Origin: Arenibacter aquaticus
Lineage (GTDB): Bacteria > Bacteroidota > Bacteroidia > Flavobacteriales > Flavobacteriaceae
Reading direction: 5' to 3'
Assembly (NCBI RefSeq): GCF_003957295.1
Contig: NZ_RQPJ01000001.1
Coordinates: 124,001-188,000 of the forward strand
Length of the DNA stretch: 64,000 nt
Shown here: positions 55,107 to 64,000 of the stretch, in pieces
How positions within the stretch are numbered: position 1 is the first letter of the stretch
Layout: each line of letters starts with the position of its first letter
Translations under genes and position numbers: made by a program
Notes under the pieces: model-generated
The model's database searches: none
The model's input: the letters and a program-made list of their open reading frames with translations, nothing else
Told to the model about the DNA's origin: nothing

Positions 55107-55334
55107 ATGAAAAATATAGCTATGTTATGGGTCATAGCAACCACGGCAGTTTTAGTATTGCTGAGCGTTATGGCCAGCTTAAATTTCCCTTTTAATTGGG
55201 TATTTTACCTAACGGTAATAGGGCAGGCAATGCTCATTTATACGGTATATAGGGTACTTACCGATGATTATGACACAAAAAAGACATTTGATGATTTCTA
55301 CGAAGACCACCCCATAGACAGCAGTAATGTTTAA
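55107..55334 (+). CDS. Small membrane protein, unknown function
   Basis: Start chosen at the ATG 55107 (MKNIAMLWVIATTAVL), giving 75 residues; a longer frame begins at 55002 but its first 35 residues look like a leader. Two helices (about 4-25 and 32-50) are followed by an acidic cytoplasmic or periplasmic tail, KKTFDDFYEDHP. The stop overlaps the stop of the universal stress protein gene by 4 bp. I do not recognise the family. Confidence 0.7.
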   Translation: MKNIAMLWVIATTAVLVLLSVMASLNFPFNWVFYLTVIGQAMLIYTVYRVLTDDYDTKKTFDDFYEDHPIDSSNV

Positions 55335-56233
55335 TTTGAGGTAGATACCTCTTTTACCCTTTTACTGCTAGGTGGAGTCCCCATTCCCAACTCCTGTATT
55401 ACCAATAAAGGTATCCGGGTATGAAAGGCCAAGCGTTTCACCACTGGCTCACGGGTCATTTTTTCCACATAACTATGCTGATAGTTAAGCATGGCCAATA
55501 AGTGTATATCCAATTCCTCTGCAAATACTTCCAAGGTTTTGGAAACCGAATTTAGTTCTGTAACCGTATGCACATAATGTTCTACCCCACTAAGGTATTT
55601 CCGTAACATATTGAGGTTAAACTGCTGCACCTCTGTAAGCGCCTTGATCTGGTATTGAACATGTACAATCCTAATGGCGGCCCTAAAAGATCTGGCCATA
55701 TCCAACAAAGGCCGTAATTCTGAACTGGTATAAAACCGGTTAAAATCGGTTGCAAAAGCTATTTCTGCTGGTGCCTGGTAGTCAAAATGCTGTGGTACAG
55801 CCAATACAGGGCAATTTCTTATAGATTTTATAATCCTTACGGTGTTGCTACCCATAAAAACCTCATCGAGACCAGAAGCCCCTTTTGTACCGGTAACCAC
55901 TAAATCTATCCGAACCGACTCTATTATATTCTTTATCTCTTCTACCAATAAATTAAAAGAAGATATGGTAATAAACCTGTGTTTGGGGTTTTGGTATTCA
56001 TTTTCCAAACGCTCTACCAACATACCCAACCCTTTTTCGGAATTGGATTTCACCACATCCTCACAAGCTTTCCCAACCGCAGCAGTTGCCATAAACCTAC
56101 TATGGGCAATGGTTGGAGTATAGGTGTTAAGTAAATAGAATTCACATTCTTCCTCCTTATAAAGTGAGATTGCATATTTAACTGCATTATATGCATTGGG
56201 AGAAAAATCGGTTGGTAACAATATCTTTTTCAA
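55331..56233 (-). CDS. Universal stress protein, two UspA domains
   Basis: 300 residues. Domain 1 (1-145) starts MKKILLPTDFSPNAYNAVKY and carries an ATP-loop-like GTKGASGLDEVFMGSNT. Domain 2 (about 150-285) is more divergent and has lost the loop. Stress-related tandem UspA proteins of Bacteroidota often respond to redox and oxygen change. Its promoter carries a Crp/Fnr-type palindrome at the same spacing as the cco genes. Confidence 0.92.
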   Translation of the reverse strand: MKKILLPTDFSPNAYNAVKYAISLYKEEECEFYLLNTYTPTIAHSRFMATAAVGKACEDVVKSNSEKGLGMLVERLENEYQNPKHRFITISSFNLLVEEIKNIIESVRIDLVVTGTKGASGLDEVFMGSNTVRIIKSIRNCPVLAVPQHFDYQAPAEIAFATDFNRFYTSSELRPLLDMARSFRAAIRIVHVQYQIKALTEVQQFNLNMLRKYLSGVEHYVHTVTELNSVSKTLEVFAEELDIHLLAMLNYQHSYVEKMTREPVVKRLAFHTRIPLLVIQELGMGTPPSSKRVKEVSTSN

Positions 56234-56282: not shown

Positions 56283-56325
56283 TAAAATTATAGGAAGTCC
56301 AAAGACTGTACTATGACATATATCA
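56283..56325 (-). promoter_or_regulatory. Crp/Fnr-type promoter of the universal stress protein
   Basis: TGACATATATCA at 56314-56325 (TGATATATGTCA on the minus strand) is centred at 56319.5. TAAAATTA at 56283-56290 reads TAATTTTA on the minus strand, one mismatch from TAnnTTTG, and is centred at 56286.5. The distance of 33 bp is identical to that in the ccoI, ccoS and regulator promoters. The start codon lies 50 bp further. Confidence 0.6.
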
Positions 56326-57131: not shown

Positions 57132-57154
57132 AACATATTATTTACCTAAGAAAG

Positions 57155-57228
57155 CAAAGTTACCCCTAATCCCTGGCAGGAAAACTGACAATTGTCATGT
57201 TTTGACATGGCAATACTGCTCATCTTTG
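57155..57228. promoter_or_regulatory. Divergent Crp/Fnr-regulated promoters of the regulator and ccoI
   Basis: TGACAATTGTCA at 57186-57197 is a perfect 12-bp palindrome centred at 57191.5. On the minus strand, CAAAGTTA at 57155-57162 reads TAACTTTG, a perfect -7 element for the regulator, centred 33 bp away. On the plus strand, CATCTTTG at 57221-57228 is a near-consensus -7 for ccoI, also centred 33 bp away. One operator can serve both. Confidence 0.8.
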
Positions 57229-57252
57229 CAGCAGGTATAAAGCAAATATTCT

Positions 57253-62717: not shown

Positions 62718-62760
62718 TGACAAATGTCATATTTTTCTTAAATCACCATGTTTAGTTTTA
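62718..62760 (+). promoter_or_regulatory. Crp/Fnr-type promoter of ccoS-ccoN
   Basis: TGACAAATGTCA at 62718-62729 is centred at 62723.5. TAGTTTTA at 62753-62760 is one base from TAnnTTTG and is centred 33 bp downstream. The ccoS start follows 20 bp after the -7 element. The arrangement matches the ccoI and regulator promoters base for base in spacing. Confidence 0.75.
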
Positions 62761-62779: not shown

Positions 62780-62959
62780 ATGAGTGTAATTTATTTATTG
62801 CTAACATTAAGTATTATTGTAGCCGTGGTCTTTTTTGCGGCTTTTATTATGGCTATTAAAAATGGACAGTATGATGATTCATACACCCCCTCCGTTCGTA
62901 TGCTCTTTGAGGATGAATTGGTTAAAAAAACCAACGAAGAGACAGAAAAAGATATCTAA
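62780..62959 (+). CDS. ccoS: cbb3-type oxidase maturation protein CcoS
   Basis: 59 residues from the ATG at 62780 to the TAA at 62957-62959. One membrane helix covers about 4-27 (VIYLLLTLSIIVAVVFFAAF), then the family end KNGQYDDSYTPSVRMLFEDE. CcoS helps insert cofactors into the cbb3 oxidase. It is first in the operon, 30 bp ahead of ccoN. Confidence 0.92.
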   Translation: MSVIYLLLTLSIIVAVVFFAAFIMAIKNGQYDDSYTPSVRMLFEDELVKKTNEETEKDI

Positions 62960-62989: not shown

Positions 62990-64000
62990 ATGGAAGTACA
63001 ACAGTTTTATTACGATAACAAAATCGTAAAAAAATTCCTTTATGCTACTATGTTTTGGGGAATTGTGGGAATGTCGGTGGGCCTACTGCTTGCCTTTATG
63101 TTTCTATTCCCTAACTTAACCGATGGCATATCCTGGTTAAGTTTTGGGCGTTTAAGGCCCTTGCATACCAATGCGGTAATTTTCGCCTTTGTGGGGAACG
63201 CCATCTTTGCAGGTGTTTATTATTCTACCCAACGGTTACTAAAGGCCAGAATGTTCAGTGATGCCCTTAGTAATTTCAACTTTTGGGGCTGGCAGGCCAT
63301 TATTGTTGCTGCAGCCATTACCTTACCTTTGGGCTATACCTCCTCCAAGGAATACGCAGAATTGGAATGGCCCATAGATTTGGCCATTGCCGTTGTATGG
63401 GTTGCCTTTGGCTGGAACCTTATAGGCACCATGTTTAAAAGACGGCAGCGCCATTTATATGTTGCCATATGGTTTTATTTGGCCACATTTGTAACGGTAG
63501 CTGTACTGCATATCTTTAACAGTCTCTCCCTTCCCGTTAGTGCCCTAAAGAGTTACTCGGTCTACGCAGGGGTCCAAGATGCTCTGGTGCAGTGGTGGTA
63601 CGGACACAATGCTGTTGCCTTTTTCTTGACCACTCCATTCTTGGGGTTAATGTATTACTTTGTCCCCAAGGCCGCCAACAGGCCTGTTTATTCCTATAGA
63701 TTGTCCATAGTACACTTTTGGTCCCTGATCTTTATATATATCTGGGCCGGACCACACCACTTACTGTATTCTACTTTACCGGAATGGGCACAGAATTTAG
63801 GCGTAGCCTTTTCTATCATGTTAATTGCCCCGTCTTGGGGTGGTATGATCAATGGACTATTGACCCTTCGTGGTGCCTGGGACAAGGTTAGAACAGATCC
63901 GGTTTTAAAATTTATGGTAGTTGCCATAACTGGTTATGGCATGGCTACTTTTGAAGGGCCGATGCTTTCGCTTAAAAACGTAAATGCCATTGCCCATTTT
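62990..64000 (+). CDS. ccoN: cbb3-type cytochrome c oxidase subunit I, 3' end missing
   Basis: Starts at the ATG 62990 and remains open at the window end, 337 residues. Multiple helices with heme and copper His: [35 protein letters not shown] and [20 protein letters not shown]. CcoN carries the low-spin heme b and the heme b3-CuB centre for oxygen reduction at low oxygen. In many Flavobacteriaceae ccoN is fused to ccoO; the end of this gene is outside the window so I cannot tell. Confidence 0.96.

Follow-up and report, generated by a model that had tools for sequence, protein, structure and literature searches.

A palindromic operator, TGACAATTGTCA, lies between the divergent genes for a Crp/Fnr-family regulator (fnr) and a copper-type P-type ATPase (ccoI) of Arenibacter aquaticus, and probably serves as a switch by which an activator turns on low-oxygen respiration genes; the same layout recurs in many related bacteria. 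Taken jointly, the observations are best explained by a class II site at which a Crp/Fnr-type activator would serve both genes, a reading in which we place good confidence. A dimer of such an activator would bind the palindrome at -41.5 and from there could contact RNA polymerase on the fnr or on the ccoI side. In response to low oxygen or a related signal, there would then be more regulator and more copper supply for the cbb3 oxidase, and the same operator-to-box layout would extend this control to the oxidase operon ccoS-ccoNO, to a hemN-like gene and to a large set of stress genes. An imperfect promoter box would make the ccoI promoter depend on the activator. The region belongs to a stretch of 64,000 nucleotides of the A. 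aquaticus genome that was analysed as a whole and is referred to below as the window.

Crp/Fnr activators of class II are positioned at -41.5. The predicted -7 boxes of fnr, TAACTTTG, and of ccoI, CATCTTTG, flank the operator at 33 bp centre to centre, equivalent to a gap of 23 bp on both sides (Table 1). A sequence-only reading of this DNA had pointed out the palindrome and the two boxes at this common distance, and on re-reading the sequence all letters and coordinates, and both 33-bp distances, proved exact. The fnr gene starts 23 bp past its box and ccoI 24 bp past its own. In Flavobacterium psychrophilum, the TAnnTTTG element occupies positions -12 to -5 (PMC9723704); with boxes so placed, the operator would be centred at -41.5 relative to either predicted start. 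The transcript starts used here are predicted, and the box position agrees with class II. The class II-type arrangement proposed earlier is thus upheld by the position of the boxes, with the centre shifted from near -41 to -41.5, and the proposal that one operator serves two divergent promoters likewise holds in the parts that sequence can test, the layout being kept in relatives.

Table 1. Features of the window that bear on the operator-box layout, with the basis of each assignment.
Feature	Position in window	Strand	Basis or remark
Operator TGACAATTGTCA, common to the fnr and ccoI promoters	57186..57197, centre 57191.5	.	Read from sequence
TAACTTTG, predicted -7 box of fnr	57155..57162, centre 57158.5	-	Gap 23 to operator
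CATCTTTG, imperfect predicted -7 box of ccoI	57221..57228, centre 57224.5	+	Gap 23 to operator
Predicted fnr transcript start	57150	-	Inferred from box at -12..-5 (PMC9723704); puts operator centre at -41.5
Predicted ccoI transcript start	57233	+	Inferred from box at -12..-5 (PMC9723704); puts operator centre at -41.5
fnr, Crp/Fnr-family regulator, 228 aa	56445..57131	-	Pfam cNMP_binding and HTH_Crp_2
ccoI, copper-type P-type ATPase, 793 aa	57253..59634	+	Pfam E1-E2_ATPase, HMA, ATPase-cat_bd
Second operator TGACAAATGTCA, before ccoS-ccoNO	62718..62729	+	Sequence match
Box TAGTTTTA	62753..62760	+	Gap 23 from second operator
ccoS-like small gene, 59 aa, first gene past the second-operator box	62780..62959	+	Translation
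ccoNO, fused cbb3 oxidase subunits, running past the window end	62990..64000	+	Pfam COX1 and FixO, whole frame (L103:391-2589)
Third operator TGATATATGTCA, before universal stress protein gene	56314..56325	-	Sequence match
Box TAATTTTA	56283..56290	-	Gap 23 from third operator
Universal stress protein gene downstream of third operator	55331..56233	-	Pfam Usp; TTG start

The palindrome alone is unremarkable: the window holds 3 matches at up to one mismatch, vs 1.5 expected. The exact palindrome occurs 8 times in the 5.23-Mb genome, compared with 3 occurrences of a reversed control pattern. Four of the eight have a TAnnTTTG element within gaps of 10-36, all four of them at gap 23, and with one box mismatch allowed seven of the eight have a gap-23 box on at least one side. 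When the operator was relaxed to TGAYnnnnRTCA and the box to TAnnTTTR at gaps of 9-37, 40 of the 70 matches in the A. aquaticus genome stood at gap 23, vs 2.4 expected under equally likely gaps, a binomial figure that further assumes independent sites and serves as a guide only. The next commonest gap has 5 matches, and the reversed control of the degenerate pattern yields 15 matches in total. The preference extends to the family. Among 149 family genomes, one per genus, 108 of 131 matches to the strict operator-box pair are at gap 23 (8 at gap 22 and 3 at gap 24), or 104 of 127 with the A. aquaticus genome set aside, figures that come from relatives and hence, through common ancestry, from non-independent samples. 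Strict matches are spread over 73 of these genomes and were found in none of the other 76. In 198 genomes of the class, 40 matches fall outside the family, 12 of them at gap 23, 6 at gap 22 and 4 each at gaps 24 and 25; the rule is weaker there, yet it persists. A palindrome arising as a chance match is ruled out by these spacing counts. The operator-box spacing is beyond chance, and the operator stands at the fixed distance from the promoter that is characteristic of class II. A single exact distance points to contact with the polymerase rather than to blocking.

Conservation at the locus itself was assessed in 80 named loci encoding close relatives of Fnr, the nearest of which, from Arenibacter species, encode an Fnr 79-85% identical. 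At 69 of the 80, the divergent neighbour encodes the cysteine motif of ccoI; at the remaining 11, neither a divergent ccoI nor the operator was found. TGAYnnnnRTCA lies between the genes in 68 of the 69 loci with divergent ccoI, and the sole miss is due to a mis-called ccoI start, the operator being present there as well. Scanning gaps of 13 to 33 for a box with at least 5 of 6 consensus positions placed 67 of the 69 loci at gap 23 on the ccoI side and 53 on the fnr side, with every other gap in that range represented by at most 2 loci. Among the 68 loci with the operator, the gap-23 box on the fnr side is perfect in 51 and a 5/6 match in one; two Arenibacter species carry the fnr-side box at gap 22, and 14 of the 68, Maribacter and Ulvibacterium among them, have none at gaps 21-25. 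Control of fnr by the operator would thus not be general, and in Maribacter, Ulvibacterium and their kin fnr is probably driven otherwise. Eight loci from these organisms retain the operator and the ccoI-side box. Several Allomuricauda and Flagellimonas have TGATATTTATCA as their operator, a sequence close to the FNR consensus; the half-site TGAY is in register with the TTGAT of FNR. Finally, in 14 fnr-ccoI intergenic regions less than 70% alike, the operator and box columns carry 1.65 bits vs 0.61 elsewhere, a figure in which the box columns are partly circular, as the loci had been pre-selected for both boxes.

The layout also recurs elsewhere in the genome. ccoI is linked to the cbb3 oxidase within the same window, ccoS-ccoNO beginning at 62780; the name ccoS is our presumption from the place and the look of this small gene. 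Joint control of copper supply to the cbb3 oxidase, which the sequence-only reading had predicted from the fnr-ccoI region, gains from the recurrence of the layout before both ccoS-ccoNO and a hemN-like gene. Sampled stretches of the A. aquaticus genome contain 53 sites where the operator is followed at gap 23 by a box matching at least 5/6 positions, a number that is not a genome-wide count since the sampling was centred on sites. At 26 of these 53 sites, the start of an ATG-started ORF lies 9-30 nt past the box, compared with 23 of 274 perfect boxes without an operator and 5726 of 72000 random places; the gap-23 pairs can be regarded as real promoters. Each site was assigned, by position only, to the first ORF downstream. 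Besides fnr, ccoI and the universal stress protein gene of the window there are 48 such ORFs, of which 40 were scanned against Pfam and 8 left out; 35 of the 40 match a family at E <=1e-4 and 5 match none, with one FtsH-like ORF scanned minus its first 68 residues.

These candidate targets form a coherent set. Oxidase and heme functions are represented by the fused ccoNO behind the ccoS-like gene and by a HemN-like radical SAM protein, whose HemN_C score is just below the cut-off. Also in the set are 11 universal stress proteins (including that of the window), Hsp20, DnaJ, thioredoxin, an S30AE protein and FtsH. Further targets are a PEP synthase-like enzyme, two cytochromes c, two pyridoxamine oxidase-like proteins, a PLD-family protein, a patatin and a PAS histidine kinase. 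Sites are dense in two islands, at 309-338 kb of contig C4 and 914-962 kb of contig C19, which hold universal stress genes, chaperones and two pairs of kinase and receiver-Crp genes; the genes at C19 918847 and 920958 appear by eye to be pta- and ackA-like. A separate motif, AGGTA, is found shortly past the box in both leaders of the divergent pair (57132-57154 and 57229-57252) and in the ccoS leader. It is common in the leaders of relatives, yet only 6 of the 53 sites in the A. aquaticus genome carry it, and AGGTA was dropped as a regulon-wide element.

The products of the two divergent genes are recognizable from their domains. Fnr matches PF00027 and PF13545 above cut-off, corresponding to a cNMP-binding fold and a Crp-type helix-turn-helix; it does not pass the NCBI Fnr model NF008365 (108 bits vs a cut-off of 228). 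In E. coli FNR the cluster is held by C20, C23, C29 and C122. Aligned with the E. coli sequence, Fnr keeps C4, C7 and C106, and N13 replaces the counterpart of C29; an alignment with FNR chain 9qlt pairs the same residues. This asparagine at the fourth-ligand position is found in the window and in all 80 relatives, and the N-terminal pattern CxxCxxxxxN is present, at identities as low as about 60%, in 23 of the 24 Fnr loci (own included) that showed the helix pattern, from a set of 30. A canonical four-cysteine FNR is excluded by the missing fourth ligand cysteine, and the conservation of CxxCxxxxxN hints at a three-cysteine subfamily of Fnr. DNA recognition by FNR involves E209, S212 and R213. 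In the same alignment, E191 and R195 of Fnr correspond to E209 and R213; S212 is not kept, its place being taken by I194 in 79 of the 80 relatives, with one gap. Three cysteines also serve in Bacillus subtilis Fnr, where they are reported to hold the cluster together with an aspartate, at other positions (PMC3520743). CcoI matches PF00122, PF12156 and PF00403 above cut-off and has its CPC motif as ACPCA; it falls below the NCBI cut-offs for heavy-metal or copper ATPases, TIGR01525 (335 bits, cut-off 346) and TIGR01511 (306 bits, cut-off 397).

Fnr is one of 8 cNMP-binding proteins encoded in the A. aquaticus genome. Two others, on contig C19 at 929 and 944 kb, combine a receiver domain with cNMP and HTH_Crp domains, and each is encoded beside a kinase gene (928.9-932.7 kb and 942.8-945.4 kb for the pairs; the first kinase assigned by Pfam, the second by look). 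Their recognition helices, TATETAIR and IATESLIR, are similar to the TATESAIR of Fnr. TATETAIR is found in all 10 of the best receiver-Crp loci (own included) and IATESLIR in three further genomes; a fourth protein, with the helix TTEEQVIR, is less like Fnr but may also be a reader. Across the 149 family genomes, 90 encode a window-type Fnr (at least 170 bits) and 66 a receiver-Crp protein (E <=1e-60), the absences of the latter being soft as 13 candidates were scored per genome. Genomes with neither regulator have strict gap-23 sites in 3 of 29 cases; such sites are present in 17 of 30 genomes that encode receiver-Crp alone, in 23 of 54 that encode Fnr alone and in 23 of 36 that encode both. 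Each single-regulator group differs from the genomes with neither (Fisher p 0.00025 for receiver-Crp only and p 0.0027 for Fnr only). Where receiver-Crp is encoded, the further presence of Fnr goes with no clear difference (p 0.62); where Fnr is encoded, that of receiver-Crp goes with a weak one (p 0.056). Many genomes without either regulator are small and 27 of the 29 lack ccoI, so that this co-occurrence, also shaped by shared ancestry, is no proof of binding. Strict sites at gap 23 lie within 15 kb of an Fnr or receiver-Crp gene in 25 of 108 cases vs 1 of 23 for other sites, which is suggestive only.

ccoI is present in 28 of the 30 receiver-Crp-only genomes, vs 2 of the 29 genomes with neither regulator, and in those 2 no ccoI start was found. 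In 26 of the 28, the operator-box layout precedes ccoI at gap 23, with an ATG 16-31 nt past the box. The layout is thus kept without a window-type Fnr, and two regulator classes may read one operator. An operator private to Fnr is therefore untenable as a proven feature, and the autoregulation foreseen by the sequence-only reading is a possibility at a site that regulators other than Fnr may read as well. Ten receiver-Crp-only genomes were inspected by look: two have the layout before a ccoNO-like gene, and in three it has receiver-Crp and universal stress genes as neighbours.

These observations could be taken further: the main reader might be a receiver-Crp response regulator under the control of a PAS histidine kinase, and the neighbouring Fnr a secondary one. 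The two kinase-linked proteins with Fnr-like helices, the excess of strict sites in receiver-Crp-only genomes, the ccoI layout in genomes without window-type Fnr and the closeness of a receiver-Crp gene to ccoI, no more than 10 kb away in 7 of those 28, all fit this arrangement. However, the operator here adjoins the Fnr gene and not a receiver-Crp gene, Fnr-only genomes are themselves richer in strict sites than genomes with neither regulator, and ccoI is next door at 69 of the 80 Fnr loci; other Crp/Fnr paralogues, for instance a 262-aa one at C19:574 kb, are possible readers, and the receiver-Crp absences are soft. We regard a receiver-Crp protein as main reader as a serious though rather doubtful possibility. 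The neighbouring Fnr appears to be the likeliest reader at the fnr-ccoI operator, and receiver-Crp response regulators are likely co-readers, judging from helix similarity and co-occurrence.

The effect of binding might also differ from the one proposed here. From one site between two promoters, a bound regulator can switch one of them on and shut the other off, and a dimer that represses fnr (negative autoregulation) while activating only ccoI, or neither gene, would suit the 14 of 68 relatives without a box on the fnr side. Yet the operator is at about -41.5 to both promoters and covers neither start, and an exact distance, needless for a repressor, is kept on the fnr side in a sharp peak at gap 23, which makes repression of fnr unlikely. 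It is more improbable still that CATCTTTG is not the ccoI promoter, with ccoI transcribed from elsewhere and the symmetry accidental: the box does match only 5/6 consensus positions, but a box of at least 5/6 recurs at gap 23 on the ccoI side in 67 of the 69 loci with divergent ccoI and in the 26 further genomes, where an ATG follows 16-31 nt past the box. Least credible of all, and hardly worth entertaining, is a layout that has no function and reflects chance or inherited background. By itself the palindrome occurs in the window about as often as expected, and the relatives are non-independent, but chance does not account for the excess at gap 23 in one genome, for its recurrence in family genomes of separate genera or for the information retained in diverged intergenic regions, even with its box columns partly circular. 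Activation of both genes from a class II site thus remains the preferred reading.

Under activation from this site, the imperfection of the ccoI box acquires a possible role. CATCTTTG agrees with 5/6 consensus positions, as its earlier description as near-consensus implied, but the imperfection is itself conserved: a perfect ccoI box is found in 0 of 69 loci of the Fnr set and in 0 of 28 of the separate set without window-type Fnr. The odd base among the 66 boxes of the Fnr set that match 5/6 is always the first (C in 57, A in 5 and G in 4), and in the set without window-type Fnr the first base is non-T in 25 of 26. By comparison, only 3 of the 53 operator-box sites of A. aquaticus have a non-T first base, ccoI among them. 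The ccoI box is probably kept weak, which would make ccoI dependent on its activator. More tentatively, and with somewhat more doubt than assurance, we propose that one promoter address (TGAYnnnnRTCA at -41.5 together with TAnnTTTG) has been kept across the family while the sensor reading it was exchanged, being a three-cysteine Fnr, a receiver-Crp protein or both; the -12 position of ccoI would stay imperfect under either reader, so that copper delivery would need an activator.

Elsewhere, both the activation of class II promoters by Crp/Fnr proteins and an Fnr-type control over cbb3 genes are well known. The E. coli FNR class II promoters share with this system the family of the putative activator, the operator position of -41.5 as predicted here and the TGA half-site core in register. 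They differ in that the operator here, TGAYnnnnRTCA, lacks the outer T, the promoter element is TAnnTTTG, a single dimer site would stand at -41.5 to two divergent promoters and three of the four cluster cysteines are present. In Proteobacteria, Anr, FnrL or FixK2 control the cbb3 oxidase genes, and these systems resemble the present one in the Fnr-type control of a cbb3 oxidase, a copper pump and heme genes; here, however, the phylum, the promoter element and the operator are different. We know of no operator sharing with receiver-Crp response regulators in the Proteobacterial systems. A parallel for a two-component input is DosRS of Mycobacterium tuberculosis, which at low oxygen governs universal stress proteins and small heat-shock proteins; DosR is not Crp-type, whereas the output module here is cNMP plus HTH_Crp. 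Flavobacterium psychrophilum, whose sigma-A promoters carry TAnnTTTG at -12 to -5, steps up heme synthesis and its cbb3 oxidase when oxygen is limiting, and the terms 'crp' and 'fnr' do not occur in the main text of that report (PMC9723704). Flavobacteriales CRP/FNR homologues have been assigned to MalR, as predicted carbon sensors with the Bacteroides MalR motif; they share the Crp/Fnr family and the bacterial order, and their motif differs from the operator described here (PMC8510549). In the open-licence papers searched, no description was found in Flavobacteriaceae of any Fnr-type operator, nor of the present operator, the spacing or a receiver-Crp co-reader; among the papers listed on Crp-type response regulators, none has Bacteroidota proteins of this kind as its subject, judging by titles and the starts of abstracts.

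For the family, a distance of 33 bp between operator centre and -7 box amounts to a simple, testable rule with which low-oxygen regulons in Flavobacteriaceae could be predicted. The never-perfect ccoI box offers a direct way into why a promoter element stays imperfect. If two input modules truly use one operator, this would be a clear natural case in which sensors are exchanged while the promoter code stays fixed.
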